Assembly: GCF_032852305.1 (NCBI RefSeq)
Contig: NZ_CP136594.1
Coordinates: 591,001 to 655,000 of the forward strand
Direction of reading: 5' to 3'
Length of the DNA stretch: 64,000 bases
Source of the DNA: Parasphingorhabdus sp. SCSIO 66989
GTDB taxonomy: Bacteria > Pseudomonadota > Alphaproteobacteria > Sphingomonadales > Sphingomonadaceae
The translations under genes were made by a program, and so were the position numbers. This document shows, in pieces, positions 41,164-57,119 of the stretch. The notes under the pieces are model-generated. The model ran no database searches. It was not told where the DNA came from and worked only from the letters and a program-made list of their open reading frames with translations. Every line of letters begins with the position of its first letter. The first letter of the stretch is position 1.

Positions 41164-41877
41164 ATGCCGACCGAGCAAAGCGGAACGGGTGGCAAGGAAC
41201 TGAAAGTAAGCGATAATAACACTCCTGTTTCACCGAAAAGGTCCATAGCCTCGTTAAGCCTGACACTGCGTACAGAAGGCAACAAACACCGCTTTTTGCG
41301 GCGTTTGCGAGGCTTTGGCAGGTTGGGGGAAACAGCCTTGGCCTGCGGGGTCAGCAACGGCACACATGGAGACTGGCGCAGACAGGATCCGGATTTCGCC
41401 GAGGCCTGCAGGGTGCAGATTTCGCGCTATCGGCGCAATGATCGTCCAAAGGGCAGGGTAGAGGAGGATAGTAAATCTGACTTTATCGCCTATGTGGCAC
41501 ATTTCCATAAAGTGCCGCTGGCCTTACGCTTTGTCGGATGGGATATGCTGCATCTGCACCGGCTGTTGCGCGATGACCCGGACTTTGTCGCTGAGTGGCA
41601 TGTCGCACTGGGCAGTATCTGCACCGAGATCGAGCTTATCCTGCTGCACATAGCGCGCTTTGGTATTCCGCCCGAAACTGTTGGCGAGCCAAGCGACGAG
41701 CGGCAATTTGATGTCACGCAGATGCTCAAGACGCTACACTATTGGCAGAGCAAACAAGCGGCCAGTGATGTTGGCGCAGTCGGGGAGAGTGACGCTTTGA
41801 TGAAGCTACGGCAGAAACTTGAGAGCATTAGAGATCGATCCGTTTTTCTCCCCTCCTCTTCAGAGGAGGGGCAGTGA
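41164..41877 (+). CDS. GTA gp1-like protein, probable small terminase
   Basis: A 237-residue protein. Near residues 40-80 it has a helix-turn-helix resembling small terminase subunits: FLRRLRGFGRLGETALACGV, then SNGTHGDWRRQDPDFAEAC. Small terminases recognise DNA and load the large subunit; in GTAs this subunit has lost sequence specificity. The ATG at 41164 follows GAGG; an in-frame ATG at 41152 is possible. The last codons (SSSEEGQ) are supplied by the left arm of a palindromic repeat (family B), so the natural C-terminus has probably been replaced. It precedes the large terminase gene by 316 bases filled with repeats. Confidence 0.65.
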   Translation: MPTEQSGTGGKELKVSDNNTPVSPKRSIASLSLTLRTEGNKHRFLRRLRGFGRLGETALACGVSNGTHGDWRRQDPDFAEACRVQISRYRRNDRPKGRVEEDSKSDFIAYVAHFHKVPLALRFVGWDMLHLHRLLRDDPDFVAEWHVALGSICTEIELILLHIARFGIPPETVGEPSDERQFDVTQMLKTLHYWQSKQAASDVGAVGESDALMKLRQKLESIRDRSVFLPSSSEEGQ

Positions 41878-41979
41878 GACTTAGGGCCGTGAGGCCCTTA
41901 GTCGCAGCGGGGTGGTGTTGCGGCACGCGTTGTACTTTGTGACTCCACCACCCCAACCCCTCCTCTGAAGAGGAGGGGC
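41850..41979. repeat. Palindromic repeat, family B copy 1
   Basis: Arms CCCCTCCTCTTCAGAGGAGG at both ends, each itself palindromic, around a core with a conserved CCACCACCCCAACCCC segment. The reverse complement matches the copy at 45275-45408 in the arms and in parts of the core (GGGGTTGGGGTGGTGG; CCACCCCGCTGCGACTAAG; CTAAGTCTCACTGCCCCTCC). Its left arm contains the stop codon of the small terminase gene. Confidence 0.88.
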
Positions 41980-42023
41980 TTTGGTCTGACGAGTCTTTAC
42001 CGAAGGCAGATGCTTCTTTGTTA

Positions 42024-42105
42024 TAGTTTCACACAAAGCCACAAAGACACTAAAGGGTGCCACAAGGTGTGATCGCTTTGTGTCTTCGTGGCTTTGTGTG
42101 CACTA
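42024..42105. repeat. Gene-free inverted repeat related to the GxxExxY unit
   Basis: A TAGTTTCACACAAAGCCACA arm at 42024 faces its complement ending CGTGGCTTTGTGTGCACTA at 42105 across about 20 bases. The same arms flank the GxxExxY gene at 35510-35975. With family B copy 1 it fills the 316-base gap between the two terminase genes (41878-42193). Confidence 0.8.
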
Positions 42106-42193
42106 AACTACTTTTTTCTCCGCTTGCGCGGAGCTGACAACAAGCAAATTACAGAACAACGAAGGGGAGCAGATAACCTGAGTCACTACCCTT

Positions 42194-43540
42194 ATGTCCC
42201 ATGTCTCGCTTGCCGAAGCGCTGGCCAATGCCGTTGAGCGCGATGCGTTGCTGGAGTCACTGGAACGCGCTGAAGCACAAGCTTTGCTAGAGGATTGGCA
42301 GTTCTGGGCCCGGCCTGAACAGCTGGCCCCGCCGGGCGACTGGCGTCTCTGGCTGATGATGGCGGGGCGCGGCTTTGGCAAGACGCGCGCAGGGGCCGAA
42401 TGGGTGCACCAGATTGCGCGTAATGATGGCACGGCGCAGATTGCCCTGGTTGGCGTGAATCTGGCCGAGGTCCGCGCGGTGATGGTTGAAGGCAAAAGTG
42501 GTCTCTTGGCCACCGCAAAGCGGCGCGAAAATCTGATCTGGGAGCCAAGCCTGCGCCGTTTGCGCTGGCCATCGGGCGCTATGGCCATGGCCTATTCCGC
42601 CGCCGAGCCGGAGAGCCTGAGAGGGCCAGAGCATAGCCATGGCTGGTGCGATGAGATTGCCAAATGGGATGCGCAGACGGGCAGCAGCTTCGGGCGGCGA
42701 AAGAAAAGCCCGGCGCTGGCATTATGGGAAAATCTGATGCTCGGCCTGAGACTGGGTCCGCATCAGCAGGTGCTGGCGACGACGACACCACGCCCTGTGC
42801 CGCTTTTGAAGTTGCTGTTGGAGCAGGATGATATTGCCGTCACCCATGGCCGCACTGCTGACAACCGTGCCAATCTGGCCCCCGGCTATATCGCCGCGAT
42901 GCAGGCCAGCTATGGCGCGTCGCTGTTGGGGCGGCAGGAGCTGGACGGCGAACTGATCGAGGATCGTCAGGGCGCGTTGTGGAAGCCCTCGCTGATTGAA
43001 AAATGTCGCGGGCCAAAACCGTCCTTGCGCGATCTGGTGCGGATTGTCGTCGGTGTCGATCCACCCGCCAGTGCGCATGGCGATGCCTGCGGCATTGTCG
43101 TCGCCGGACGCGATGCCGTGGAAAATGGCTGGATATTGGCCGATGCCAGTGTCGAACAGGCCAGCCCGGAACAATGGGCGCGTGCCGTAGCACAGACCTA
43201 TGCCGCCTGGGACGCGGACCGGGTGGTGGCAGAAAGCAATCAGGGCGGGGCGATGGTCGCCAGTGTGCTGCGTGCCGCGTCGCTCAGCCTACCGGTAAAA
43301 CTGGTGCATGCGCGGCGCGGCAAGTCGGCGCGCGCTGAGCCGGTGGCGGCGCTGTATGAGGCTGGACGGATATGTCATGCCGGGTTGTTTCCGGACCTCG
43401 AAGACCAGATGTGCGGCCTGATGACCGGCGGCGGCTATATCGGTCCTGGCCGTTCGCCCGACCGTGCCGATGCGCTGGTCTGGGCACTGACCGAATTGAT
43501 GCTGGGCCCAGAGAATGTGCCGAGAGTGCGGTGGTTGTAG
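42194..43540 (+). CDS. GTA large terminase subunit (gp2)
   Basis: A 448-residue packaging motor protein. The ATPase has Walker A GRGFGKT at 58-64 and a Walker B/catalytic Glu at WCDEIAKWD (Asp153, Glu154). The RNase H-like nuclease begins at VVGVDPPASAHGDACG near residue 290, with later acidic positions in ESNQGG and SPDRADALVWAL. It translocates about headful lengths of host DNA into capsids in GTAs. The length is normal. The RBS is weak: GGGGAG lies 25 bases upstream. Confidence 0.92.
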   Translation: MSHVSLAEALANAVERDALLESLERAEAQALLEDWQFWARPEQLAPPGDWRLWLMMAGRGFGKTRAGAEWVHQIARNDGTAQIALVGVNLAEVRAVMVEGKSGLLATAKRRENLIWEPSLRRLRWPSGAMAMAYSAAEPESLRGPEHSHGWCDEIAKWDAQTGSSFGRRKKSPALALWENLMLGLRLGPHQQVLATTTPRPVPLLKLLLEQDDIAVTHGRTADNRANLAPGYIAAMQASYGASLLGRQELDGELIEDRQGALWKPSLIEKCRGPKPSLRDLVRIVVGVDPPASAHGDACGIVVAGRDAVENGWILADASVEQASPEQWARAVAQTYAAWDADRVVAESNQGGAMVASVLRAASLSLPVKLVHARRGKSARAEPVAALYEAGRICHAGLFPDLEDQMCGLMTGGGYIGPGRSPDRADALVWALTELMLGPENVPRVRWL

Positions 43541-43544: not shown

Positions 43545-43748
43545 ATCCTCCCCCAAAGGGGGAGGGGGACCAGCCGTAGCTTTAGCGAAGGCTGGTGGAG
43601 GGGCACAAGCCGCATGATGCAATGTAACAGAAGTGGAACTTCACTCTCAGTATCGCGGCAGAAATAGCACCGTCTCTTATCTTTGGTGTCATGCCGAGGG
43701 TACCCCTCCACCGCTTTCAGCGGTCCCCCTCCCCGTACCGGGGAGGAT
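43545..43748. repeat. Palindromic repeat, family A copy 1
   Basis: Ends ATCCTCCCCCAAAGGGGGAG on the left and CCGGGGAGGAT on the right. Next to each end is a second complementary pair, GGTGGAGGGGCAC and GTACCCCTCCACC, with a small internal hairpin (CAGC...GCTGG) in each arm. It fills most of the 232-base gap between the large terminase and portal genes and leaves only the portal RBS (AAGGAG). Confidence 0.88.
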
Positions 43749-43772
43749 TGTTTTCTCACAAGGAGACCTTTC

Positions 43773-44954
43773 ATGTCCTTTTGGCGAACGGGCTGGCTGG
43801 CCCTGAAACATTGGGCCGGTCCGCCGCGCCCGGCGCAGACGGTGACCGGGCCTGAGACATGGCCGCGCGGGTTGATCTATGGCGCTTCCACCCCATCAGG
43901 TTTGCCCGGCGATTATATCAGCCAGGTGCGCGCCGCCTATCAGCAAAATGCGGTAGCGCAGCGCTCGGTTCGGATTGTCGCCGAAGGGGCAGGCAGTGCG
44001 CCATTGCTTGCTGACAAGCCGATAAACGCACTGTTGCAAAGCACCAGTCACGAGGCGCAGGATAGCAGCCAGTTGCTCGCCACACTGGCCTCGCACCTCC
44101 TGCTGCATGGCAATGCCTATGTGCAGATCGCCCGCGATGCCGAGGGCAAACCCGAACGCCTCTATCCCTTGCGCCCCGACCGGGTGACGATTGAGAGCGA
44201 TGCGCAGGGCTGGCCTGCCGCCTATCTCTATCGCGTCGGTGAAGCGGTAACGCGCTTTGCCGCCTATGATGATGACGGCGCGCCGCATATTGTGCATCTC
44301 AAGACATGGCATCCCGATGATGACCATTATGGTCTGGGCTGTCTCGGCGCGGCGGCGGAGCCGGTGGCGATTCATAATGCCGCCAGTCGCTGGAACCGGG
44401 CGCTGCTCGACAATGCGGCGCGGCCATCGGGGGCTCTGGTCTATGATCCGGGAGAGGCGGGGGCGGTGCTGAGCGCTGATCAGTTTGACCGGCTCAAGGC
44501 GGAGCTCGAGAGCAATTATGGCGGCGCGGGCAATGCCGGGCGGCCCTTGCTGCTCGAAGGTGGTCTCAAATGGCAGGGCATGAGCCTCAGCCCGGCGGAT
44601 ATGGATTTTGTCGCGCTCAAAGCCGCAGCGGCGCGCGACATTGCGCTGGCCTTTGGTGTGCCGCCGATGCTGCTCGGCCTGCCGGGCGACAATACCTATG
44701 CCAATTATCGCGAGGCCAATCGCGCGCTGTGGCGGCTGACCATCTTGCCGCTGCTTGGCACCATGCTGGGCGGTCTGGGCGGCGCGCTGCGCCATTGGTG
44801 GCCCGATGCCGACCTGTCCGTTGATATCGATCAGATACCGGCCTTTTCCGAGGATCGCGAAAAGCTGTGGAACCGGGTGAGTGCGGCGGATTTCCTCAGC
44901 GATGAGGAGAAGCGGGCGATGCTCGGGCTGGAACCAGGAAAGGAAACGCTATGA
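43773..44954 (+). CDS. GTA portal protein (gp3, HK97 type)
   Basis: A 393-residue HK97-family portal. Family stretches include YQQNAVAQRSVRIVAEGAGS, LLLHGNAYVQIARD, LYPLRPDRVTIE, and the stem/crown region ending in FGVPPMLLGLPGDNTYANYREANRALWR (split at GDN). It forms the dodecameric ring through which DNA enters. The start at 43773 has a perfect AAGGAG-N7-ATG; the longer frame upstream is repeat sequence. The stop overlaps the next start (ATGA). Confidence 0.93.
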   Translation: MSFWRTGWLALKHWAGPPRPAQTVTGPETWPRGLIYGASTPSGLPGDYISQVRAAYQQNAVAQRSVRIVAEGAGSAPLLADKPINALLQSTSHEAQDSSQLLATLASHLLLHGNAYVQIARDAEGKPERLYPLRPDRVTIESDAQGWPAAYLYRVGEAVTRFAAYDDDGAPHIVHLKTWHPDDDHYGLGCLGAAAEPVAIHNAASRWNRALLDNAARPSGALVYDPGEAGAVLSADQFDRLKAELESNYGGAGNAGRPLLLEGGLKWQGMSLSPADMDFVALKAAAARDIALAFGVPPMLLGLPGDNTYANYREANRALWRLTILPLLGTMLGGLGGALRHWWPDADLSVDIDQIPAFSEDREKLWNRVSAADFLSDEEKRAMLGLEPGKETL

Positions 44955-45259
44955 GCCGGGAAGAATTGCTGGCGCGGCTGATCGCGCAGGCGGGTAGCGA
45001 CAAGGCCGATCTGGTGACGCTGCGCGCCATTGTTGAGGAATCGAGCGAACTCGGCGCAGCGCGGGCGCTGGAACATCTTGGTCTTGCCGATGCCACCGCA
45101 CGCCGCGATATGGCCGAACTGCGCGAACTGCTCAGCGCTTGGCATGAGGCGAAAAGCAGCGTCTGGCATGCGTTTCTGTCATGGATGGTGCGCGGCGCGC
45201 TGGCGCTGCTGCTGATCGGTCTCGCGGTGCGGCTGGGGCTATGGGGCTGGGAGATATGA
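44951..45259 (+). CDS. Small protein between GTA portal and protease (gp3.5 position, DUF6127-like)
   Basis: A 102-residue protein. The first 75 residues are helical and charged (LLARLIAQAGSDKADLVTL; ARALEHLGLADATARRDM), then a single hydrophobic segment (GALALLLIGLAVRLGLWGW) ends the protein, so it should be anchored in the inner membrane by its C-terminus. I associate it with the DUF6127 family from sphingomonad GTA clusters. In Rhodobacter a small gene also sits here (g3.5). Function is unknown. It is coupled by ATGA overlaps both to the portal upstream and the protease downstream. Confidence 0.75.
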   Translation: MSREELLARLIAQAGSDKADLVTLRAIVEESSELGAARALEHLGLADATARRDMAELRELLSAWHEAKSSVWHAFLSWMVRGALALLLIGLAVRLGLWGWEI

Positions 45260-45807
45260 GCGCGCGATTGGATAGCCCCTCCTCTTCAGAGGAGGGGTTG
45301 GGGTGGTGGCGTTCAACCGGCACAGCGCAATCGGATAGCCCCCACCCCGCTGCGACTAAGCGCCTGACGGCGCTAAGTCTCACTGCCCCTCCCCTAAAGG
45401 AGAGGGGGATTGTTCGTTTTGCCGGCTATGCCGCGCTGTTTGACCGCATGGATCGCGGCGGGGATGTGATCCGGCGTGGGGCGTTTCGGCGTACGCTGGG
45501 TGATGGCAGTCCGCGCCCGTTGTTGTGGCAGCATCGTGGGGCGCAGCGTATCGGCACGGTGCAGCATATCGCCGAGGACCGACGTGGCCTGAGAGTCATT
45601 GCCACGATTGACGCCACCAGCGGTTCTGCGGCCAAGGCACGCAGCATGGTGCAGGCAGGCGCGGTGACCGGCCTCTCCTTCGGCTATCGTGTGCGCCATT
45701 ATCAGATCGGCCCACCGCGGCTGTTGCTCGACCTGGATCTGGTCGAGATCAGCCTGGTGACCTTCCCGATGCAGCCCGATGCCAGGGTGCATCTGCTCGC
45801 AGCGTAA
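45256..45807 (+). CDS. GTA prohead protease (gp4) with repeat-encoded N-terminus
   Basis: A 183-residue HK97-type prohead protease. The conserved domain starts at IVRFAGYAALFDRMDRGGD (about residue 51) and has the catalytic His93 (LLWQHRG) and Ser141 (GLSFGYR), then LDLVEISLVTFPMQPDARV. It cleaves scaffold parts of the capsid protein. The ATG at 45256 overlaps the previous stop (ATGA). Residues of about 7-51 are encoded by a palindromic repeat (family B copy 2), giving a leader rich in Ser, Glu and Pro. The next in-frame ATG (45448) would cut into the conserved first strand, so the repeat is probably translated. Confidence 0.9.
   Translation: MSARLDSPSSSEEGLGWWRSTGTAQSDSPHPAATKRLTALSLTAPPLKERGIVRFAGYAALFDRMDRGGDVIRRGAFRRTLGDGSPRPLLWQHRGAQRIGTVQHIAEDRRGLRVIATIDATSGSAAKARSMVQAGAVTGLSFGYRVRHYQIGPPRLLLDLDLVEISLVTFPMQPDARVHLLAA
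45275..45408. repeat. Palindromic repeat, family B copy 2, inside the protease gene
   Basis: Left arm GCCCCTCCTCTTCAGAGGAG, right arm CCCCTCCCCTAAAGGAGAGG, with the core CCACCCCGCTGCGACTAAGC. It is the same element as 41850-41979 in opposite orientation. It contains no in-frame stop in the protease frame. Confidence 0.9.
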
Positions 45808-45840
45808 ACGAAAATACTTCCCCAACTGAAAGGCATGATT

Positions 45841-47103
45841 ATGGAACAGACAGTGGCAAATGCCGCGCCTGAAGGCGTGGCTGTTGATAGCGCGGGCGCG
45901 AGTGGCGATCCGCTGGAAAGCTCATTTGCGGCGATGCTCAAGACCGATGAGCATGGTGAAAGGATTGACGCGCTGGAAGGCGCGGTTGATGGCGTAAAGG
46001 CCGATGTTGATGCGCTCAAAGGCGAGACGGCCACGCTCAAAACCGGCATGGCGCGGATCGCCTCGGCCGCAGCGCGCCCGGTGCTCGCAAGCCCTGCCGC
46101 GCCATCGGGAGCAGAGGTGAAGGGCGGCGCGACCAGCCCGGCTCTGCGTGCCTTTGTCGATGGCTATTTGCGAGCGGGCCGCGAGACCGAGATCAAGAGC
46201 TTCAACGCTGGCAGTGGCCCCGAAGGCGGCTTTGCCGTCCCCGATGAACTCGACGCGGTGATCGCCAAAACCCTCAACACCATCTCGCCCATTCGCCGCA
46301 TCGCCAATGTGGTGCAGACGGGCAGCGCCGGTTATCGCAAGCTGATCACCCATGGCGGCACACCGTCCGGCTGGGTCAGCGAGACCGCCGCGCGTGACGA
46401 GACCGATACACCGACCTTTGCCGAAATCGCACCGCCTTCGGGCGAGCTATACGCCAATCCAGCGGCGAGCCAGACCATGCTCGATGATGCTGCGTTCAAT
46501 GTCGAACAATGGCTGGCGAGCGAGATTGCCGAGGAATTCGCCCGGGCTGAAGGCGCCGCCTTTATCAAAGGCTCCGGTGCCAATCAGCCGCGCGGTTTCC
46601 TGAGAGCACCGGTCAGCGATGCCGGTGACGCAACCCGCGCCTTTGGTACGTTGCAGACGGTTTTTTCGGGCGCGGATGCGGGCTTTGCGGCCAGCGATCC
46701 GGAAGACCGCCTGATCGATCTGGTGCACAGCCTCAAGCCTGCCTATCGTCAGGGTGCAAGCTTCGTCATGAATTCGACCACGCTGGCACTGATCCGCAAG
46801 TTCAAGACCGAGGATGGCGCGTTTCTGTGGCAGCCGGGTCTGGCCGAAGGTCGCCCCGATACGCTGCTCGGCTATCCGGTGGTTGAGGCCGAGGATATGC
46901 CCGATATTGCCAGCGGCAGCCTGTCGATTGCTTTCGGCAATTTCCGCGCCGGCTATCTCATCGCCGAGCGTAAGGCGACGACGATCCTGCGCGATCCGTT
47001 TACCAACAAGCCGTTTGTGCATTTCTATGCCACCAAGCGCGTGGGTGGGCAGGTGCTTAACAGCGAGGCGATCAAGCTGATGCGCTTTGGTGCGATTAAC
47101 TGA
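45841..47103 (+). CDS. GTA major capsid protein (gp5, HK97 fold)
   Basis: A 420-residue capsid precursor. Residues about 15-90 are a coiled-coil scaffold-like delta region (EHGERIDALEGAVDGVKADV, then DALKGETATLKTGM) expected to be removed by the protease. The HK97 core begins near FVDGYLRAGRETEIKSFNAG and has GWVSETAARDETDTPTFAE, FIKGSGANQPRGFL and the C-terminal YHARKRVGG-like segment YATKRVGGQVLNSEAIKLM. The start at 45841 is chosen because AAAGG lies seven bases upstream; ATG 45835 is too close to it. It follows the protease by 33 bases. Confidence 0.94.
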   Translation: MEQTVANAAPEGVAVDSAGASGDPLESSFAAMLKTDEHGERIDALEGAVDGVKADVDALKGETATLKTGMARIASAAARPVLASPAAPSGAEVKGGATSPALRAFVDGYLRAGRETEIKSFNAGSGPEGGFAVPDELDAVIAKTLNTISPIRRIANVVQTGSAGYRKLITHGGTPSGWVSETAARDETDTPTFAEIAPPSGELYANPAASQTMLDDAAFNVEQWLASEIAEEFARAEGAAFIKGSGANQPRGFLRAPVSDAGDATRAFGTLQTVFSGADAGFAASDPEDRLIDLVHSLKPAYRQGASFVMNSTTLALIRKFKTEDGAFLWQPGLAEGRPDTLLGYPVVEAEDMPDIASGSLSIAFGNFRAGYLIAERKATTILRDPFTNKPFVHFYATKRVGGQVLNSEAIKLMRFGAIN

Positions 47104-47107
47104 CGCA

Positions 47108-47289
47108 ATCCTCCCCGGCACGGGGAGGGGGACCAGCGAAGCTGGTGGAGGGGCACCCTCGGCCTCATAGATTGCATGTAATGGCTCGCGATCAGGCGGC
47201 ACGGGTGAGTACCCCCTCGGACATTGCATCATGCCGCCTGTGCCCCTCCACCATCCTTCGGATGGTTCCCCTCCCCCAAGGGGGAGGAT
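47108..47289. repeat. Palindromic repeat, family A copy 2
   Basis: Left arm ATCCTCCCCGGCACGGGGAG with GGACCAGCGAAGCTGGTGGA; right arm GTGCCCCTCCACCATCCTTC with GGGGGAGGAT. The core shares CTCGGCCT-ATAGATTGC-TGTAATGGCTCGCGATCAG-CGGCAC and GCATTGCATCATG-like parts with copy 4. The rest of this 319-base gap (47290-47422) holds only a 28-codon open frame of biased composition and the RBS GGAGG of the next gene. Confidence 0.9.
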
Positions 47290-47422
47290 TTTCCAGATCG
47301 GCAGAGCATGGCGCGGACCTTTGGTTCCGCCAGTGCTTTGCCGCGCCCGCATCGCCGGTCCCTCCCCTCCCGGCGGTGCGGGCGACCTTTGTAACTCTCG
47401 CTATCGGCAAGGAGGCAGTGTG

Positions 47423-47971
47423 ATGACCCTCTCGATTATTGACCAGCCAGCTATGATAGATGCGGCAGCGCTGGCCGAGCTCAAAGCCCTGCTGGCGATT
47501 GAGAATAGCGAGGATGATGCGCTGTTGCTGTCGCATTTCCGCTCCGCCTATGCGCTGTGTGAGGCCTTTACCGGGCGGGCCTTGCTACATAGCCGCAGGT
47601 GCTATCGATTGACGCTCAGGACCGGGATGCAACGCCTGCCCGATCATCCGGTTATCGCCATAGAAGAGATACGCACCATTGATGATGACGGCAATGGAAC
47701 AGCCTTGCCGATTACCGCCTATCAGATGGATATCGATGGTGAGGGTTTTGGCAGTGTGGCACTTTTGGCACCGCTGCCGGTGGTGCCTGTCGAGGTGCGC
47801 TATTCAGCGGGGATTGCCGCGCAATGGGAGCAGCTGCCCGAACTGTTGCGCCAGGGCATTGTCCGCCTCGCCGCGCATCAACATTTGCAAGGCGCTGCGG
47901 ATAGTGAAGTCATGCCTCCCATTGCCGTTGCGGCACTGTGGCGTCCATGGCGAAGGCTGCGGCTGGCATGA
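47423..47971 (+). CDS. GTA head-tail connector protein (gp6)
   Basis: A 182-residue protein of the phage gp6-like head-tail connector family (YqbG/HK97 gp6 fold). The N-terminal helices (AALAELKALLAIENSEDDAL, LSHFRSAYALCEAFTGRAL) and the LPDHPVIAIEEIRTIDDDG strand are characteristic, as is the late LPELLRQGIVRLAAHQH helix. It docks to the portal ring. GGAGGCAGTGTG precedes the ATG at 47423. The stop overlaps the next start (ATGA at 47968). Confidence 0.88.
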   Translation: MTLSIIDQPAMIDAAALAELKALLAIENSEDDALLLSHFRSAYALCEAFTGRALLHSRRCYRLTLRTGMQRLPDHPVIAIEEIRTIDDDGNGTALPITAYQMDIDGEGFGSVALLAPLPVVPVEVRYSAGIAAQWEQLPELLRQGIVRLAAHQHLQGAADSEVMPPIAVAALWRPWRRLRLA

Positions 47972-48192
47972 AGCATTTTGGTACAAAGCTGGTTGAACGT
48001 GCTGAAACCATGGCCGAAGCGCGGGCCAAGCAGCATCAGCAACGGATAGCCGACGCTGTGTTGGCAGACTATCCCGAAGCCACAGTGCAGCACGATGGAT
48101 CAGGCCATCGCCTGCATATCACAGCGCCTGGACTGATGCGCCGCTGGCTTGGCGATCCCTATTTCTCTCTGCTGAAAAGGACCCGGCGATGA
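47968..48192 (+). CDS. Small protein in the GTA head-closure position
   Basis: A 74-residue, basic protein: a charged N-terminal helix (LVERAETMAEARAKQHQQRI), then a beta-rich part (YPEATVQHDGSGHRLHITAP) and a basic end (LKRTRR). It occupies the place where the Rhodobacter GTA has its head-closure (stopper, gp7, about 110 residues), but I see no similarity to that family. Its own family is not recognised. It is coupled to both neighbours by ATGA overlaps, so it is a genuine part of the cluster. Confidence 0.7.
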   Translation: MKHFGTKLVERAETMAEARAKQHQQRIADAVLADYPEATVQHDGSGHRLHITAPGLMRRWLGDPYFSLLKRTRR

Positions 48193-48611
48193 CAGTATCG
48201 GATTTGCAGGGGCTAGAGGCGCCTGACTTCGCCCTGCGTCAGCATATTGAGGATTGGCTTAGCCAGTCGCCGATATTGGCGCGGCATATGGCGCACATAA
48301 GCGATCAATCCCGCCGCCCGAAAGCGCGTCCGGCATTGCAGGTGACGACGACGCAGACAGCGGACTGGAGCGGCAAAGGCTTTGCCGGGCGCGAGGTCGA
48401 GCTGGTGCTGACCCTTGCCATGCGCGGTGAGGATAAAGCGCGCTTCTCGGCTCTTATTGCGGCGATGGAGGAGCGCATGGCCAATGTGCCGGATGCATTC
48501 TCGGCTGGCCGTATCGTGACGCTGATCCCGCAAAACCGCCGCACTGCGCTGACGCAAGACGGCGTCTGGCGCATGCGCAGCAATTGGCGAGCGCGGGCGA
48601 TTATTTCCTAA
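48189..48611 (+). CDS. GTA tail terminator (gp8, DUF3168)
   Basis: A 140-residue DUF3168-family protein. Visible features are ALRQHIEDWLSQSP at the N-terminus, the LQVTTTQTADWSGKGFAGREVELVLTLA strand pair (split at GK) and the helix ARFSALIAAMEERMANVPD, ending MRSNWRARAIIS. The family caps the tail tube beneath the connector. ATGA overlap with the preceding gene. Confidence 0.88.
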   Translation: MTVSDLQGLEAPDFALRQHIEDWLSQSPILARHMAHISDQSRRPKARPALQVTTTQTADWSGKGFAGREVELVLTLAMRGEDKARFSALIAAMEERMANVPDAFSAGRIVTLIPQNRRTALTQDGVWRMRSNWRARAIIS

Positions 48612-49543: not shown

Positions 49544-49570
49544 TTGCACCATCTTTTTGAAAACTCCAGC

Positions 49571-49926: not shown

Positions 49927-50491
49927 GGAACTGGTTGTTTCGGTGCGCGGCGATACACAGACATTCGCCCGTGATGTCGAGACGATGCGCAGCTCGCTGG
50001 ATAGTGCGCTGGGCAGCGGTTTTGACCGCGCTGGACGGACGCTGGAGGCCGGGCTGATGCGTGCAGTGCGCAATGGTTCGCTTGGCTTTGAGGATTTGCG
50101 TAAAGTGGCGCTGTCCGTAATCGATGATATTGCCGCTGCTGCGCTTTCGAGCGGGTTGAACAGTATCGGGCTGGGCGCTGGCACTGGAGGACTAAGCGGC
50201 GTTCTGGGCGGTCTGCTTGGCAGCGTACTTGGCCTGCCGGGGCGCGCAACCGGAGGGCCGGTGGCACCGGGGCGCGCCTATCGCGTTGGTGAGCAGGGGC
50301 CGGAGCTTTTCATCCCCACCAGCAGCGGCCGCATCGACAATGGCCGTGCCACGCCAACCCAGCCACGCGATATGCGAGTGGCGATTACCGTCAATGCGCA
50401 GGATGGCCAAAGCGCCCCGGCGGCGCTGCAACGCTCCTCACGCCAGGTGGCCCGTGCATTGGGCCATGCGGTGCGCCGGGCGGAGCGGTGA
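49910..50491 (+). CDS. GTA tape measure protein (gp11), very short
   Basis: A 193-residue tape measure. It has the phage minor tail start (DAVIEELVVSVRGDTQTFAR), FEDLRKVALSVIDDIAAAAL near residue 66, a Gly-rich hydrophobic stretch (GLGAGTGGLSGVLGGLLGSV) and the conserved GRAYRVGEQGPELFIPTSSG (split). Typical siphophage tape measures are 600-1200 residues, while the Rhodobacter GTA protein is about 220, so a very short tail is predicted. It overlaps gp10.1. Confidence 0.9.
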   Translation: MDAVIEELVVSVRGDTQTFARDVETMRSSLDSALGSGFDRAGRTLEAGLMRAVRNGSLGFEDLRKVALSVIDDIAAAALSSGLNSIGLGAGTGGLSGVLGGLLGSVLGLPGRATGGPVAPGRAYRVGEQGPELFIPTSSGRIDNGRATPTQPRDMRVAITVNAQDGQSAPAALQRSSRQVARALGHAVRRAER

Positions 50492-50497: not shown

Positions 50498-50683
50498 ATC
50501 CTCCCCGGCACGGGGAGGGGAACCAGCGAAGCTGGTGGAGGGGCACCCTCGGCCTGATAGATTGCTTGTAATGGCTCGCGATCAGTCGGCACCAATCCAT
50601 GCATGCCCTTTCAAGCATTGCATCATGCGGCCTGTGCCCCTCCACCATCCTGCGGATGGTTCCCCTCCCCCTTGGGGGAGGAT
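50498..50683. repeat. Palindromic repeat, family A copy 4
   Basis: Left arm ATCCTCCCCGGCACGGGGAG with ACCAGCGAAGCTGGTGGAGG; right arm TGTGCCCCTCCACCATCCTG with GGGGGAGGAT. Very similar to copy 2, in the same orientation. It starts seven bases after the tape measure stop and ends 19 bases before the next gene. Confidence 0.9.
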
Positions 50684-50702: not shown

Positions 50703-53072
50703 ATGGACTTCTGGCTCGCTGAAAAACGCAATGGCCAGCAGGGCGATGTGATTCAGCGTTTTGATCCGCGATTCTGGACCGTCAATTTCCCGCGGCCGAT
50801 GATGGCGTCTGTCGTGACCAGCGCGGCGGATGCGCTGACGGTGCGCACGGTCTTCTATGATCGTAACCAGCTGGCCGGGCTGATCTGGGACAGCGAGGAC
50901 CGGCTGGATCATGCGTTGCTCGCCTATGCAACCGACCGCGATTATCGCCATACCAGCCTAAGCTTTCGCTGGCGTTCGAGCGGTATCAAAGCGCTTGATG
51001 CGGTGCACGGGCCGACACTGACGATTGAGGGCCGCGATGCCGAGGGCCATCCGCGCAGTTGGTATGTGCGGCTGTGGAACTACGCCCAAGGCAGTCCCAG
51101 TGATGCGCTGATTACCCTCAATTTCTCCGATTTACAGGGCGGCTTCCTGCTCCCTGATGAGGCCGATCCGGTTTATGCGGGCGATATTGACCGCATGTTC
51201 ATCTCGCTGGTGCCGCCGGATTATGATCCTGATACGGCATCGCTTGTCGCAGTGCGCGAGGGCCGGGTGGATATTAGCGAGATACGCTGTTCGGGCCATC
51301 GCGCGATGCTCCATATAGGCGATATCATGGTGCCGCAGCACGGTCTCTCCATGGCCACCGCCTATGATGACAGCCTGAACCAGACGCCCGAGCGCTTGCT
51401 GCGCAGCGTGCGGCAATTGGGCTATGTAGGGCCGATCAGCCATTATGTCGGCATGAGCCATTATTTCCGGTTGGTGGCCGAGAGTGAATTGGTCGATGTT
51501 CGGGATGGACAGTCTGCGATAAACACGCCCTGCCGCGCCTGGCATCAGGACCTTGCTCAGCGCGCTGCGGCGGCGGGGCATGATTTGATCTTCTCGCTCT
51601 CCTATGAGCTGTTTAATCGCCATTGCCCGGAAGACTGGAAGCAGCGCGATTTTGAGGGCAATCCCGGGCTGACCGGATGGGATCCACCCTCAGCCCTGCT
51701 GAGCCCGGCCAATGACGAAGCCATGGGCTATTTGCAGAATGTTGCGCGCAGCTTTGTCGCGATTCAGCAGAGCGCCGGGCTACCGGTGCGGTTTCAGGTT
51801 GGCGAACCCTGGTGGTGGGTTGGCTTTGATCACCGTATCTGCCTCTATGATGATGCCGCCAATGCCGCTTTTGGGTCGCTGTCGGTAGAGATAAGCGATG
51901 TGCGTCAGCCAATGTCGGCGGCGCAGAATGCCTTACTCGATGCAGCGGGCGCGGTTTTGGCGCAGTCCACGGCGGCACTGGCCGATGCGGTGCGCGATAT
52001 GGCGGGTAATGCGGGCGCTGAGCTCAGTATCCTCATCTACCTACCGACCATCGCCGATCCCGACAGTCCCGAAGTGCTGCGCGCCAATATCCCCTTGGGC
52101 TGGGCGCGTCCGGCGTTCGATATATTGCAACTGGAGGATTATGACTGGGCCACCGAGCGCCGCACTGGCACGCGCGAACGAGCATTGGCGCTGGTCGCCG
52201 ACCGGCTGGGCTATCCGCTGGATGAACAGCATTATTTCTCCGGCTTTGTGCTCAACCCGGAAGACAAGGCTCAGTGGCACGGGATTATCGACGCTGCTGA
52301 GGATGCGCGAAAACGGCAAATCCCGACGATTTTTCTCTGGGCCCTGCCGCAAGTGGCGCGCGATGGGCTGGTGGTGTTTGATTTGGCAGGAGATGATGCG
52401 GTGCAGGCTTTTGATGATGTGGCTTTCCCGCTGCCGGTGAGCATGGAGATGCTGGCCGAGGCGGAATTCTCGACCCAGATTCTTACCACTGGCGACGGCC
52501 ATGAACGGCGCAACAGCCGCTGGAGCGATGCGCGGATGCATTATGATGTCGGACCATCGGTTGCCTCCGAGGCAGATCTGGCGGTGCTGATGCGTTTCTT
52601 CCGCGCGCGCTCCGGTCCGGCGCGGGGTTTCCGCTTCCGCGATCCGTTTGATCATAGCAGTGCCGATAACGGCCAGGCGGTAAAGCCAAGCGATCAATGG
52701 ATTGCCACCGGCAATGGTGAGCAGAGCGATTTCCCGCTGCTAAGGGCCTATGGCGATGCGCAGGGTGGTGATCCACAATTGCGGCGGATTACTCGCCCGG
52801 TTGCCGATACCATCCGCATCGCGATGGATGGCGCCGAAACCAGCGGCTGGTCGCTGCAACCGGGCGGTATAATCCGCTTCACCACGCCACCGCCCGCAAA
52901 CAGCCAAATCAGCGCGGGCTATCTCTTCGATGTACCGGTGCGCTTTGCAGAGGACCGCTTGGCGGTAAGCGCTATCACCTTTGCTGCCGGTGAAGCGGCG
53001 AGCGTGCGGCTGATCGAACTGCGCGAAGATGTCGGCGAAGCCCTGCCAGCACAGCAGGGTGTAGCGGCATGA
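50703..53072 (+). CDS. GTA tail protein: TIM-barrel-like N-terminal part fused to DUF2460 (gp12)
   Basis: A 789-residue protein. Residues about 595-785 are the DUF2460/TIGR02217 distal tail domain usual for gp12 (FFRARSGPARGFRFRDPFDH, then LRRITRPVADTIRIAMDG, GGIIRFTTPPP). The first 590 residues are extra: a beta-rich start (LWNYAQGSPSDALITLNFSD) and a sugar-hydrolase-like barrel from about 215 to 560 (SLSYELFNRHCPEDWK, FQVGEPWWWVGFD, ILQLEDYDWATERR, IPTIFLWALPQVARDG). It resembles GTA_TIM and non-contractile tail sheath TIM barrels. Rhodobacter gp12 is only about 200 residues. The stop overlaps the next ATG. Confidence 0.85.
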   Translation: MDFWLAEKRNGQQGDVIQRFDPRFWTVNFPRPMMASVVTSAADALTVRTVFYDRNQLAGLIWDSEDRLDHALLAYATDRDYRHTSLSFRWRSSGIKALDAVHGPTLTIEGRDAEGHPRSWYVRLWNYAQGSPSDALITLNFSDLQGGFLLPDEADPVYAGDIDRMFISLVPPDYDPDTASLVAVREGRVDISEIRCSGHRAMLHIGDIMVPQHGLSMATAYDDSLNQTPERLLRSVRQLGYVGPISHYVGMSHYFRLVAESELVDVRDGQSAINTPCRAWHQDLAQRAAAAGHDLIFSLSYELFNRHCPEDWKQRDFEGNPGLTGWDPPSALLSPANDEAMGYLQNVARSFVAIQQSAGLPVRFQVGEPWWWVGFDHRICLYDDAANAAFGSLSVEISDVRQPMSAAQNALLDAAGAVLAQSTAALADAVRDMAGNAGAELSILIYLPTIADPDSPEVLRANIPLGWARPAFDILQLEDYDWATERRTGTRERALALVADRLGYPLDEQHYFSGFVLNPEDKAQWHGIIDAAEDARKRQIPTIFLWALPQVARDGLVVFDLAGDDAVQAFDDVAFPLPVSMEMLAEAEFSTQILTTGDGHERRNSRWSDARMHYDVGPSVASEADLAVLMRFFRARSGPARGFRFRDPFDHSSADNGQAVKPSDQWIATGNGEQSDFPLLRAYGDAQGGDPQLRRITRPVADTIRIAMDGAETSGWSLQPGGIIRFTTPPPANSQISAGYLFDVPVRFAEDRLAVSAITFAAGEAASVRLIELREDVGEALPAQQGVAA

Positions 53073-53887
53073 GCTGGTTTAGTCAGGCGCTGGAAACGGT
53101 CGCCATTGTCTGGCGGCTGGAGCGACACGATGGTGTTGCGCTCGGCTTTGTTGGCCATGATCGCGATATCTGGCGGCAGGGCTTTCGCTATCGCGCGGTG
53201 CCGGGCATTCAACCCTCGGCGATTATGCTGGAAGACGGTTTGCGGCCCGACACCATGGATATGCAGGGCGTGATTGCGCATGATGCGATCAGCGAGGCCG
53301 ATCTCGAGGCCGGGCGTTGGAATGGTGCGCGGGTCGCTATAGGCTTCGCGGATTGGGCCGATGCGGATCGTACCCCGGACTGGCTGGTCCATGGCGAAAT
53401 CGGCGAAATCAGCCGCCGCTCCGGCGCGTTCACAGCCGAAGTGCAAAGCGGCAAAGCGGCGCTCGAAGCGGCTCCCTGCCCGCGCACATCGCCGAGCTGC
53501 CGCGCCGATTTTGGCGGCCATGGCTGCGGCCTGTCGCGCCAGCGTTTTCGTATCGAGGCAGAGCTGCTGAGCGTGGATGCTGATGGCGCACTGGTTTTTG
53601 ATGCCATAAGTGAAGCAGATGCGCCCCATTATCTGTTCGGCCATATTCGCTGGTTAAGCGGCAACTGTCGCGGATCAACATTCGCCATTGGCGCTGTGCA
53701 GCAAAGAAGGCTGATCCCCAGCGATATCCATAGCTGCGTGCCACAGCCGGGTGATCGCGCGATGCTCACCATGGGCTGTGACAAGCAGTTCGTCACCTGC
53801 CGCGACCGTTTTAACAACAGCGCCAATTTCCGAGGCGAACCGCATCTACCCGGCAATGACCTGCTGACCCGCTATTCCTATGGATAG
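53069..53887 (+). CDS. GTA tail hub protein (gp13, DUF2163)
   Basis: A 272-residue DUF2163/TIGR02218 protein. Recognisable are the start (VAIVWRLERHDGVALGFVGHDRD, split), SEADLEAGRWNGARV, the Cys-rich PCPRTSPSCRADFGGHGCGLS, and the end MGCDKQFVTCRDRFNNSANFRGEPHLPG (split at FNNS). In the Rhodobacter GTA the homologue is the hub with an iron-sulphur cluster bound by such conserved cysteines; by analogy these cysteines may bind one too. It overlaps both neighbours. Confidence 0.9.
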   Translation: MSWFSQALETVAIVWRLERHDGVALGFVGHDRDIWRQGFRYRAVPGIQPSAIMLEDGLRPDTMDMQGVIAHDAISEADLEAGRWNGARVAIGFADWADADRTPDWLVHGEIGEISRRSGAFTAEVQSGKAALEAAPCPRTSPSCRADFGGHGCGLSRQRFRIEAELLSVDADGALVFDAISEADAPHYLFGHIRWLSGNCRGSTFAIGAVQQRRLIPSDIHSCVPQPGDRAMLTMGCDKQFVTCRDRFNNSANFRGEPHLPGNDLLTRYSYG

Positions 53888-54302
53888 CCGCGGAGAGAGT
53901 ATCACGCAGCGGGCGATGGAATTGATCGGTGCACCGTTTCGCTTTCAGGGGCGTGATCCCGAGACCGGTCTCGATTGTGTCGGGGTAGCGCGCCACGCGC
54001 TGCGCGATTTGACCAATATCCCGTTACCGGACTTTCGCTATAGTTTGCGCGGACCAGGCCGGTCGACGTGTCGCGCTTGGGCGGAAAAGGCAGGGCTGAC
54101 TGCACTCGCCTCGGATAGTATTGTTCTTCCGGGCGATATTCTCTGTGTCGCGCCCGGCCCTGGCCAGCACCATCTGATGGTCGCCGTCGACCAGGGCTTT
54201 GTCCATGCGCATTACAGTATTGGCAAAGTGGTGCTTTGGCCGGACCATCAGGACTGGCCGCTGGTCGCACATTGGCGGCTGGACCCGATTCATATCCATT
54301 AG
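53880..54302 (+). CDS. GTA cell wall peptidase (gp14, NlpC/P60)
   Basis: A 140-residue cysteine peptidase. The nucleophile is in ETGLDCVGVARHAL near residue 32 and the catalytic His in GPGQHHLMVAV near residue 100. It would cut peptidoglycan during DNA entry from the tail tip. The gene overlaps the hub gene by eight bases and is followed by the host-specificity gene after nine bases, with AGGAG as RBS. Confidence 0.93.
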   Translation: MDSRGESITQRAMELIGAPFRFQGRDPETGLDCVGVARHALRDLTNIPLPDFRYSLRGPGRSTCRAWAEKAGLTALASDSIVLPGDILCVAPGPGQHHLMVAVDQGFVHAHYSIGKVVLWPDHQDWPLVAHWRLDPIHIH

Positions 54303-54311
54303 GAGACGGTT

Positions 54312-56579
54312 ATGGCGACACTGGTTTTGTCCGCAGTCGGGCAGCTTGTTGGCGGCCCTGTCGGCAGTGCGGTCGGGGCGCTGCTGGGCAACCGCGTCGA
54401 TAACATGCTCTTTGGCGGATCACAGAAAGGCCCGCGCCTCGCCGACCTGTCAGTACAGACCTCGCAATATGGCGCGATCGTTCCGCGCATCTATGGTCAG
54501 ATGCGGGTTGCCGGTACGGTGATCTGGGCAACCGATCTGGTCGAACATCGTGAGCGCACGGGTGGCGGCAAGGGCCGCCCTTCACAGACGCATTATACCT
54601 ATAGCGTGTCCTTCGCTGTCGCGCTGTCATCGCGGCCCATAGCGTCGATTGGCCGGATCTGGGCCGATGGCAATCTCTTGCGCGGGGTTAATGGTGATTT
54701 CAAAACCGAGACCGGCTTTCGTCTGCACAATGGCTTTGCCGATCAGCCGGTCGATCCGCTGATAGCCGGGACGGAGGGTGCCCATTCCTCTCCCGCCTAT
54801 CGCGACTATGCCTATTGCGTATTCGAGGATTTTGATCTGACCGAATATGGCAATCGCATCCCGTCGCTGACCTTTGAAGTGATCGCAGGGGATGAGAAAT
54901 TCTCGCCTGTAATGCCTATAAGCGATTTTCCCGACGCAGACCCCGATATGCCGGAACAGCCTGCAACGATAACCGGCTATGCGATACAGGCCGATAGCTG
55001 GCGCGGGGCGATTGAGGAATTGATGGCCGCTTTCCCGATGCATGCCGATTGGCGTGCCTCGGGGCTCTACTTGCTGGCTGCAAATACGGCATATGATGCT
55101 GCAGATAGCAGTTCACTTCCCATGCTTCGGTCAGAAGACCAACTCCTCGATAGTGAAACAGCAGATGCGGCAGCAGAGCAACGCGACAAGCCAAAGCAAC
55201 AGGCAGAGACCCTGATTCTGCGTTACTATGAACCGGAACGCGACTTTCAGGCCGGATTGCGACGTTCAGTATCGGGGCTTGTTGACAGCAGCCAAAGAGG
55301 CAGAACCGAGCAGCTTGATCTGCCAGCAGCTCTGACAGTCGACGACGCAGAGACCGTCGTTCAGCAGCTCCAAATGGAACGCCAAGCGAACCAGTCCGAG
55401 CGCACAGTTTTCCTCGCCACAATCGATCCCGATTTACGGCCCGGCCAATTGGTGCGGCTGGAGGATAGCAACGCCTCTTGGCGGATACGGCATTGGGCGC
55501 TTGAGAATATAGCGCAAAATGAATCGCGGAGTATTGGTTGTCGGGTTGATCTGGTGCGTTTTTATTCCGGCGCAGCTTTACCGTCCTACGCTGGTTATAG
55601 CGCAGGGCGCAGTGTGCAACCAGCTGACTATCCGGCTGGCCCCATCGACTGGACCTTACTCGACCTTCCTTGTTTGCCGAATGAAATTGCATATCAGCCC
55701 AGGCTTTTCGTAGCTGCATGGTCGGCAAACGGCGAACCGGCAGGCTGGCGCCATGCGGATATTTTCCGCGCAACCGCAGATGGAGGCCTGTTGCTATCTT
55801 TGGGACGGGTACGCAATGCAGCCATTACTGGCAAAACCCTGACTGTGGTGCCTGCTTCGAAAGGTCTGTTTCTTAACCGACAATTGGCGCTGGAAGTTGA
55901 TTTTGGCGAAACCGATCCGCAATTGGAGTCACTTGATAGTGATGGGCTAAACGCTGGCCGCAATGTCGCGATGCTGGGTGAGGAAATCATACAATTCGGT
56001 ATGGCCGAATGGGTCGGCGACGGTCGCTACCGATTGTCAGAGATCTATCGTGCCCTGGGCGATGGGCGTGGCGGCGAAACCAGTCATCCAGTCGATACGC
56101 GCCTTTTTCTCCTCGATTCTGCGATCCTGCCAATCGATAGTCAGGGGTTCGCCGCCGATGCTGAACAGCATTATGCGGCCACCAGTCCTTACGCCCCCGA
56201 GCCCATTTTGCGCACCGCGTCGCCCGGTGCGCGTGCCCTGATGCCGCTTGCACCGGTGCATTTGCGGCACAGCGCGGATGACGAGGGCAATATCGCCTTG
56301 CAGTGGACGCGCCGCGACAGACATCGCCCTGGCTGGCGAGATGGCGCGGAAGGACCGATGGCCGAGCTGGATGAGCGATATCAGGTCAGCATAGAACTGC
56401 TCGGGACCGATGATGACCGCATCACTTTAGGGGTGTTTGAAACTGATAGACCTGATTTCACTATCACCGCAGATATGCTCAATGGCTGGAATCTCGGACC
56501 TTCTCAAGCTCTGGGCGCATCGATTCGGCAGATTGGTGACTATGGAGTCTCAGATGCAGCCAGCATATCGCTGCTTTAG
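54312..56579 (+). CDS. GTA host-specificity/tail fiber protein (gp15) without the TIM domain
   Basis: A 755-residue protein. The start is the gp15 type (VLSAVGQLVGGPVGSAVGAL, then YGQMRVAGTVIWATDLVEHR and the GGGKGRPSQTHYTYSVSFAVAL region). From about residue 215 the phage-tail_3-like part begins (ADSWRGAIEELMAAFPMHADWR). The Rhodobacter protein is about 1300 residues because a TIM barrel lies between these two parts; here the barrel is absent. From about 55080 on the codon choice changes to more GCA, CAA and AGT and lower GC than the first third, suggesting a recombination border. Confidence 0.87.
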   Translation: MATLVLSAVGQLVGGPVGSAVGALLGNRVDNMLFGGSQKGPRLADLSVQTSQYGAIVPRIYGQMRVAGTVIWATDLVEHRERTGGGKGRPSQTHYTYSVSFAVALSSRPIASIGRIWADGNLLRGVNGDFKTETGFRLHNGFADQPVDPLIAGTEGAHSSPAYRDYAYCVFEDFDLTEYGNRIPSLTFEVIAGDEKFSPVMPISDFPDADPDMPEQPATITGYAIQADSWRGAIEELMAAFPMHADWRASGLYLLAANTAYDAADSSSLPMLRSEDQLLDSETADAAAEQRDKPKQQAETLILRYYEPERDFQAGLRRSVSGLVDSSQRGRTEQLDLPAALTVDDAETVVQQLQMERQANQSERTVFLATIDPDLRPGQLVRLEDSNASWRIRHWALENIAQNESRSIGCRVDLVRFYSGAALPSYAGYSAGRSVQPADYPAGPIDWTLLDLPCLPNEIAYQPRLFVAAWSANGEPAGWRHADIFRATADGGLLLSLGRVRNAAITGKTLTVVPASKGLFLNRQLALEVDFGETDPQLESLDSDGLNAGRNVAMLGEEIIQFGMAEWVGDGRYRLSEIYRALGDGRGGETSHPVDTRLFLLDSAILPIDSQGFAADAEQHYAATSPYAPEPILRTASPGARALMPLAPVHLRHSADDEGNIALQWTRRDRHRPGWRDGAEGPMAELDERYQVSIELLGTDDDRITLGVFETDRPDFTITADMLNGWNLGPSQALGASIRQIGDYGVSDAASISLL

Positions 56580-56654
56580 AGCGGATATCTGGGCATGTCT
56601 TTGCAACTCTGGCTTGATTTCATGACTTTCCGGCAAAAATGAAAGGACGACCCT

Positions 56655-57119
56655 ATGGCGCAAATCACTGCAAATGATCCAGAGGCCAATACCGCCAGAT
56701 ATGGGCTGCCTCTGCTATATCCTGGTCAGGCACACAAGGAAGTCCATCATAATGAAGCACTCGCCCAGCTTGACCTGCTGGTGAATATGGTGGTCGAGGG
56801 GATAGCCGAAACACCCGATGGGTTAACCCCTGAGCCCGGCCAATGCTGGCTGATATCCGGGACAGCTTCCGGGATATGGGAGGAGTGGCGTGGTTCTATT
56901 GCGGGCTTTATTGCCGGGGAATGGGTCTATCTTGCCCCTCAGGACGGGCAGATCGTGCAGGTTAGAGCAACTGCCGCCCGCATGGTGTTCCGCTCCGGCT
57001 TTTGGAGAATGACGCCGACCATGGCTGAACCCTCCGGTGGAGAGGTCATAGATCAGGAAGCGCGCAGCGCGATTCTTGCCTTGCGCAATGCGCTTGAGCA
57101 ATTCGGCTTGATGGTTTGA
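56655..57119 (+). CDS. DUF2793 family tail-associated protein
   Basis: A 154-residue protein of the DUF2793 type: ARYGLPLLYPGQAHKEVHHN, EALAQLDLLV, GQCWLISGTASGIWEEWRGS and the end ALRNALEQFGLMV. Such domains are found in phage tails and GTA spikes and often carry receptor-binding parts. It follows gp15 by 75 bases and closes the cluster. The next 202 bases (57120-57321) hold no recognised gene. Confidence 0.82.
   Translation: MAQITANDPEANTARYGLPLLYPGQAHKEVHHNEALAQLDLLVNMVVEGIAETPDGLTPEPGQCWLISGTASGIWEEWRGSIAGFIAGEWVYLAPQDGQIVQVRATAARMVFRSGFWRMTPTMAEPSGGEVIDQEARSAILALRNALEQFGLMV

Follow-up and report, generated by a model that had tools for sequence, protein, structure and literature searches.

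Tail-tip genes of the RcGTA-like cluster

We analyzed a 64,000-nucleotide stretch of Parasphingorhabdus sp. SCSIO 66989 (contig NZ_CP136594.1, positions 591,001 to 655,000), referred to here as the window, in which 18 plus-strand open reading frames (ORFs; 41152-57119) keep the gene order of RcGTA, the gene transfer agent (GTA) of Rhodobacter capsulatus, according to the ORF list and Pfam, NCBIfam, and PHROGs matches. A sequence-only reading had placed here a sphingomonad-type GTA cluster in the order gp1 to gp15 followed by DUF2793; the family searches confirmed this, with 18 ORFs in place of the seventeen genes it counted. The order runs from a terminase small subunit (TerS)-like gp1, terminase large subunit (TerL) gp2, portal gp3, DUF6127 gp3.5, S78 protease gp4, and HK97-type capsid gp5 through head–tail connector gp6, gp7, gp8, tail tube gp9, a GTA-gp10 family protein, tail assembly chaperone (TAC) gp10.1, and short tape measure gp11 to gp12, hub gp13, NlpC/P60 peptidase gp14, megatron gp15, and DUF2793. 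Foremost, gp12 joins a tail-sheath module to the distal tail protein (Dit), and gp15 is a short megatron:

50703..53072, plus strand: gp12, a fusion of NCTSP_N, NCTSP TIM barrel, and Dit, 789 aa (Pfam, NCBIfam, and structure and profile comparisons)
50751..51320, plus strand: gp12 residues 17-206, NCTSP_N, tail-sheath N-terminal domain (PF23844, 323.1 bits against a cut-off of 27)
51333..52367, plus strand: gp12 residues 211-555, TIM-barrel_NCTSP (PF23845, 536.5 bits against a cut-off of 27)
52413..53024, plus strand: gp12 residues 571-774, distal tail protein, DUF2460 (PF09343 and TIGR02217, above cut-off)
54312..56579, plus strand: gp15, short megatron without the peripheral/GTA_TIM domain, 755 aa (Pfam, NCBIfam, profile alignment, and model)

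A plain Dit measures ∼210 aa, against the 789 aa of the fused gp12, and E302, E368, and E478 in the TIM-barrel_NCTSP domain are invariant (20/20). In gp15, Pfam recognized Phage-tail_3 (residues 229-396) and Rcc01698_C (504-593) and gave no match to GTA_TIM (PF13547). Alignment with TIM-type megatrons reached a probability of 100 over 704 columns, interrupted by a single long gap that starts near residue 195 and is still open where the listed alignment ends, and Foldseek matched the predicted gp15 model to baseplate proteins of RcGTA and JBD30. In the megatron tree, the TIM-type sequences form one clade (100/100), with the short ones around it; the tree is unrooted, so gain in the RcGTA types and loss in Sphingomonadales are not distinguishable. 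For the TIM type, 12 of 29 genomes with GTA_TIM were inspected, 11 of which are in alignment A2 (L128 was omitted) and 9 in the tree. Alignment A3 holds the window's gp15, the gp15 of 23 of 71 relatives, and L136, with 9 of the 71 in the tree; L009, with a truncated start, was omitted from alignment A1.

We do not claim that the megatron TIM domain moved to Dit: profile comparison of gp12 with 11 TIM-type megatrons gave no homology (probability 0.2). A distant fold relation between the gp12 and megatron TIM barrels is possible; the RcGTA megatron is not among the 50 entries listed as matches for gp12, which proves nothing.

Distribution of the sheath module and the short megatron

The short megatron and the NCTSP–Dit fusion go together. 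Of 196 genomes sampled from the order, 99 have NCTSP TIM, the window's genome included, and none (G000 among them) has a GTA_TIM match, with a positive Caulobacter control. The megatron C-terminal domain was matched in 112 of the 196 and gave no match in 84; both NCTSP and the megatron C terminus are present in 97 genomes, NCTSP alone in 2, and the megatron alone in 15. Among these last 15, 7 have frames of <600 aa, G021, G039, and G065 have frames of >1000 aa, and G006, G008, G050, G158, and G161 have frames of 730-927 aa and resemble deletion remnants. Inspection of G065 and G021 revealed a stand-alone Dit in both; their megatrons (L142 and L143; 1167-1178 aa) carry an insertion without a Pfam TIM match, and their hubs carry a long insertion. 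G098 has two NCTSP pieces on two contigs.

Across the class, 4 of 289 genomes have NCTSP (three in the window's family, the window's genome among them, and G352), 29 of 289 have GTA_TIM, and none has both. Dit was found in 48 of the 289 genomes at 53 places. Fifty of these, one of them a match below cut-off, are in frames of only 199-362 aa, too short for the fusion; the other 3 of 53 are in frames of 788-839 aa, all in the window's family. A phylum sample gave NCTSP in 16 of 398 genomes, one of them below cut-off: 14 in the window's family, G352, and the weak one. All 12 inspected GTA_TIM loci (12/12) combine a stand-alone Dit of 204-213 aa with a megatron of 1205-1494 aa.

The hub is a third carrier of such a module. 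In G352, from another alphaproteobacterial order, it is the hub that carries the NCTSP module, in a fusion of 899 aa; Dit stands alone there, and the megatron has 772 aa (L136 and L243). Upstream in L136 and L243 is a TerS-like gene, preceded by host-metabolic-looking genes (named by eye). G013 and G026 have two NCTSP places each. One place in G026 is a GTA cluster in which Dit is fused (787 aa); the other places in G013 (L239/L241/L242) and G026 (L238) hold a stand-alone Dit, an NCTSP–hub protein of 932-964 aa, a short megatron, and DUF2793. The G013 element shares its contig (contig 14) with TerL and capsid-protease genes of other families, primase, Sak4, ParB/methyltransferase, and an 815-aa tape measure, and an integrase lies ∼19 kb from its DUF2793 end. 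Given these genes, the element is very likely a prophage. The module and the short megatron thus co-occur in two arrangements, on the hub and on Dit.

In phage records, a tblastn search with gp12 matched 432 entries, only one of which covers at least 80% of the protein. This 5.4-kb record (MT840053.1; L233), submitted under the label of an unverified human-gut bacteriophage, matches gp9-gp15 of the cluster and so seems to be part of a Sphingomonadales-type GTA. The best 80 IMG/VR contigs with this gp12 are at most 25,335 bp long; 33 pieces of at least 15 kb have gp5, gp9, and gp11-gp15 in 33/33, gp3 in 31, and gp2 in 28. Since only the best 80 of a larger number of relatives and contigs were used, a large phage carrying the Dit fusion could have escaped notice.

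Genes, inheritance, and dispersed repeats of the cluster

The other genes of the cluster and its conserved neighbor are as follows:

41152..41877, plus strand: gp1, terminase small subunit-like, 241 aa (PHROG_4044, E 5.3e-11; alternative start 41164; last codons inside repeat R2)
42194..43540, plus strand: gp2, terminase large subunit, 448 aa (Terminase_6N/6C)
43773..44954, plus strand: gp3, portal, 393 aa (Phage_portal, E 3.2e-75; scan from 43683)
44951..45259, plus strand: gp3.5, DUF6127, 102 aa (Pfam)
45256..45807, plus strand: gp4, prohead protease S78 (Peptidase_S78, scan from 45181; ATG overlaps the gp3.5 stop)
45835..47103, plus strand: gp5, major capsid, 422 aa (Phage_capsid, E 4.7e-90)
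47423..47971, plus strand: gp6, head–tail connector (TIGR02215)
47968..48192, plus strand: gp7 position, 74 aa, no family found in NCBIfam or PHROGs (counterpart in 1 of the best 80 relatives)
48189..48611, plus strand: gp8, tail completion (PF11367)
48822..49229, plus strand: gp9, tail tube (PF06199)
49226..49543, plus strand: gp10, GTA-gp10 family tail protein (PF11836)
49693..49926, plus strand: gp10.1, tail assembly chaperone TAC_6 (PF09550, scan from 49609)
49910..50491, plus strand: gp11, short tape measure, 193 aa (PHROG tape-measure families; RcGTA_tape below cut-off)
53069..53887, plus strand: gp13, baseplate hub (TIGR02218)
53880..54302, plus strand: gp14, NlpC/P60 peptidase (PF00877)
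56655..57119, plus strand: DUF2793 protein (PF10983; 1 of 6 PHROG matches is a tail fiber family)
57322..58446, plus strand: OmpA-like outer membrane protein, conserved neighbor (Pfam, scan from 57253)

Genes overlap at 8 of the 17 junctions, fewer than the mostly ATGA/GTGA overlaps described before, and six junctions have gaps of 149-319 nt that are the sites of dispersed repeats. A Walker A-like GRGFGKT is present in gp2; catalytic residues of the cluster were judged by eye, alongside the Pfam matches. The DUF2793 protein is a possible fiber or attachment part. Counterparts of the 11 GTA-Hunter training genes (g2-g6, g8, g9, g12-g15) are clustered here, judged by family and order rather than by the classifier; the head–tail cluster rule of that tool asks for at least 6 clustered genes that its classifier calls RcGTA-like (PMC6821227). 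The cluster encodes Caudoviricete-derived proteins (Pfam, NCBIfam, and PHROGs), one element of the GTA definition in PMC9662315.

Both flanks look host-like. Upstream are a patatin/cNMP-binding protein (Pfam) and an oxidoreductase-like ORF (by eye); downstream are OmpA, a UDP-glucose dehydrogenase-like ORF (by eye), an MFS protein, a phosphatase, and polysaccharide genes. The part directly 3′ of the GTA (58572-63798) forms an exopolysaccharide-type set of UDP-glucose dehydrogenase-like (by eye), low-molecular-weight phosphatase, and polysaccharide biosynthesis genes. The earlier statement that integrase, repressor, replication, and lysis genes are absent held for the 12 flanking proteins scanned, where none of these families was found; the remaining ORFs of the window lay outside that scan. 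A CtrA-like motif had one match (351-366) against 3.16 expected, Rfam at gathering scores gave no match in 37-60 kb, and a first genome scan with a single-protein query gave no matches.

For inheritance, we used the best 80 of a larger number of relatives, fetched by gp12, so that the presence of gp12 among them is by construction. The congener G482 has a complete cluster at the same patatin/OmpA locus, with the UDP-glucose dehydrogenase flank too; its gp12 is 66% identical, and no match to gp7 was seen in its locus. Across the 51 full loci among the 80, gp3, gp5, gp9-gp11, gp13-gp15, and DUF2793 are each present in 50-51, and gp1 was matched in 7 of the 80 loci, many of which end before gp1. 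The OmpA-like gene adjoins the cluster in 49 of the 51; it may be a partner or receptor, or merely a long-standing neighbor. The gp12 tree (81 rows) follows host groups in the main, with Sphingobium in one group, Erythrobacteraceae near one another, and Novosphingobium and Sphingorhabdus rows in two places each. Distances between gp12 sequences correlate with distances between the OmpA proteins encoded next door (Mantel r 0.73, n = 49, 0 of 500 permutations). The definition in PMC9662315 further speaks of a host-endogenised genome, seen here in the fixed locus in G482 and the remnant there in the congener G481, and of mostly vertical inheritance with co-diversification, seen here in the gp12 tree and the Mantel comparison with OmpA rather than in a full host phylogeny. 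By the same definition, GTA particles package mainly random host DNA, are unable to package their genome as a whole, and deliver DNA.

Median omega values among relatives range from 0.24 (gp9) to 0.49 (gp15), computed by NG86 over nonindependent pairs with no correction for codon bias. NCTSP (0.34), TIM (0.33), and Dit (0.34) lie close to the capsid (0.32), so selection constrains the added NCTSP/TIM module to much the same degree as the Dit to which it is joined. The hub, tape measure, and megatron are looser (0.47-0.49), and single gp11 pairs reach 0.93.

These data bear on whether the locus is an ordinary prophage or a prophage remnant. Related tail tips do occur in the prophage-type element of G013, with its integrase on the contig, primase, Sak4, own TerL, and long tape measure. 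However, the locus is fixed in the genus, the gp12 gene tree is largely host-like, the 12 flanking proteins scanned include no phage genes, and the IMG/VR pieces are the same ∼15-kb gene set. We therefore regard an ordinary prophage or prophage remnant here as very improbable.

Three repeat families lie within the cluster (R1 ×4, R2 ×2, and R3 ×1). Every copy falls in the part from 41.85 to 50.7 kb, and gp12-gp15 are free of them; they are listed without strand:

41850..41980: R2 copy over the gp1 stop and the gp1/gp2 gap
43545..43749: R1 copy between gp2 and gp3
45274..45407: R2 copy inside the gp4 reading frame
47107..47291: R1 copy between gp5 and gp6
48610..48793: R1 copy between gp8 and gp9
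49570..49653: R3 copy between gp10 and gp10.1
50498..50683: R1 copy between gp11 and gp12

R1 is ∼185 bp long with palindromic ends. Its 4 copies fall within 7 kb of the cluster (43545-50683) among at least 40 loci in the genome (0.20 expected, P 5e-5) and form the tightest four-copy group among the loci scored; 40 of 60 candidates were scored, which makes the clustering figure optimistic, and the genome counts of R2 and R3 are likewise lower bounds. The gp11–gp12 gap has a median of 8 nt in relatives, against 211 nt here, and gp10 and gp10.1 overlap in relatives, against a 149-nt gap here. Repeat-like pieces gave 29 blastn matches in the best 80 loci and none in the G482 stretch. In gp4, R2 is in frame at the N terminus just past the start (45256-45420); residues at the same spot in L025 and L034 look repeat-derived by eye, which suggests that the gp4 N terminus is a recurrent insertion spot.

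Proposed recipient recognition and known systems

We consider it likely that this 18-ORF RcGTA-like cluster makes GTA particles and that the gp12 sheath module is a receptor- or glycan-binding collar, as predicted from its homology, replacing the absent peripheral TIM domain of gp15. With gp12 fused to a sheath module and the megatron tip domain missing, these bacteria probably recognize recipient cells with a different device. Our interpretation is that the recognition module was exchanged in this lineage, within a GTA that is likely functional and passed on mainly by vertical descent; receptor binding, particle production, and transfer are inferred. Sphingomonadales have glycosphingolipids in place of lipopolysaccharide.

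By analogy with RcGTA (PMC7296036), the order of events would be attachment, baseplate rearrangement, iris opening, peptidoglycan cleavage, and DNA entry. Six sheath modules would ring the tail tip here, because Dit is present in six copies in RcGTA. Judging from N4 homology and the joint distribution, these six Dit-borne modules, instead of three megatron peripheral domains, would touch the cell first and would bind its surface as N4 gp65 does. The signal would then pass to the hub and megatron, the N-terminal iris of the megatron would open, and gp14 would cut peptidoglycan before DNA enters. The TIM barrel could, in addition, attach to surface polysaccharide or cut it.

Several observations weigh against a functional GTA with an exchanged recognition module. 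Two NCBIfam RcGTA equivalogs fell below cut-off (GTA_megatron NF048004, 374.2 bits against 800; RcGTA_tape NF058675, 19.1 bits against 220). The likeness of gp12 to the N4 sheath subunits is partial: its TIM barrel resembles gp64, and the best sequence match to the large subunit comprises only its residues 47-129, so receptor binding may not carry over. The gp15 model has a pTM of 0.45, with weak overall placement. For most genes, dS between the window and the congener is saturated or nearly so, and selection was therefore measured among relatives only. The congener G481 (L151 16289-18234) has lost gp1 to mid-gp15 and keeps gp15 288-754 and DUF2793 between patatin and OmpA. In some relatives, gp12 is broken up or interrupted; among the 99 genomes with NCTSP TIM, the domain is split into two matches in G035, G047, G072, and G140, has an internal stop in G010, and is partial in G144. 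All 5 inspected relatives with a short megatron and no NCTSP TIM match (L137-L141) look like deletion remnants, L140 having no gp2-gp12 match in 9 kb upstream. Finally, R2 in the gp4 N terminus and at the gp1 end could impair function.

In L137-L141, large internal deletions leave gp14, gp15, and DUF2793. A separate role for these three after head loss is possible; the five were chosen for the megatron end, so the retained 3′ end is partly a selection effect.

The cluster could be a relic on its way out, its genes open and particles no longer made in this strain. The half of gp15 and DUF2793 left in G481, the 84 of 196 genomes of the order without a megatron C-terminal match, the repeats in six gaps and inside gp4, and the split gp12 copies fit such a relic. 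However, all 18 ORFs are open, purifying selection acts across relatives, and the congener G482 has a complete cluster, and we judge a relic unlikely. The earlier description of the cluster as functional rather than a decayed prophage is thus probably right on the evidence of G482, the host-like tree, and omega (0.24-0.49), with the loss in G481, the remnants, and the split gp12 copies as qualifications. That description had passed over the gp12/gp15 domain exchange, the intergenic repeats, and the in-frame repeat of gp4.

Two other functions for the module have to be weighed against receptor binding. The TIM barrel might mainly be enzymatic, acting as a glycoside hydrolase on capsule or exopolysaccharide to let the particle through to the outer membrane. 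A shared fold, however, proves no function. TIM-barrel enzymes usually carry acidic residues on a pair of strands, whereas those of the gp12 TIM barrel follow strands 3, 4, and 6 by our count. Moreover, N4 gp64 is described, in the accessible portion of PMC12633501, as a sheath subunit and not an enzyme. We find the enzyme explanation rather unlikely. Alternatively, the N-terminal module might be purely structural, stiffening or shielding the short tail without cell contact, as the N4 relatives of the module form a sheath around the tail tube. Yet N4 gp65 is a receptor binder within a six-fold gp64:gp65 sheath (PMC12633501, same portion), and the module covaries with the absent peripheral domain of a baseplate protein; a purely structural role seems improbable.

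Returning to receptor binding, a broader generalization can be offered tentatively, at a little below even chances: that siphovirus and GTA baseplates have an interchangeable TIM-barrel recognition module, borne on one of three adjacent proteins, the megatron (RcGTA type), the hub (in prophage-type elements of Sphingomonadales and in G352), or Dit (in GTAs of Sphingomonadales), and that an N4-type receptor-binding sheath module is these bacteria's own device for choosing recipients. GTAs, domesticated virus particles for DNA transfer between bacteria, are usually described via RcGTA; much of an order of common bacteria seems to use this kind of particle fitted with another recognition head, which would be taken from or shared with N4-type sheaths and would link podophage sheaths to siphovirus-like baseplates. 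This offers a testable handle on how GTAs choose recipients. The NCTSP–Dit fusion with a short megatron would also be a marker for telling true prophages apart from Sphingomonadales GTAs, of which IMG/VR lists pieces as viral contigs.

RcGTA-like clusters of Sphingomonadales are already known from the available parts of PMC6821227, PMC9765227, and PMC9662315, as is the fact that they are inherited mainly vertically and that g7 is replaced or missing. The first two treat the same taxon and cluster, and the NCTSP–Dit fusion and the missing megatron TIM are unmentioned in those parts. We found no description of an NCTSP–Dit fusion with a short megatron in the literature searched, supplements and subscription papers aside; the combination appears to be new and the Sphingomonadales GTAs themselves are not.

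Compared with RcGTA (Rhodogtaviriformidae), the cluster shares the gp1-gp15 order, Dit, hub, peptidase, both megatron ends, and a short tape measure. The RcGTA Dit is unfused, with 210 aa, whereas here it is part of a 789-aa fusion; the RcGTA megatron, at 1304 aa, includes a peripheral domain (residues 230-744; PMC7296036), against 755 aa for the megatron here. The prophage-type element of G013, the second element of G026, and G352 have the NCTSP module, short megatron, gp14, and DUF2793 in common with the window, but they carry the module on the hub (899-964 aa) with a stand-alone Dit, and G013 has other head genes and the 815-aa tape measure. The non-contractile tail sheath of phage N4, gp64:gp65 (PDB ID codes 9lc0, 9yf4, and 9yf5), shares NCTSP_N and the TIM barrel, and a six-fold arrangement is expected here from Dit. 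In N4, however, these are two separate sheath proteins of a short-tailed phage, whereas here they form one polypeptide joined to a siphovirus-like Dit.

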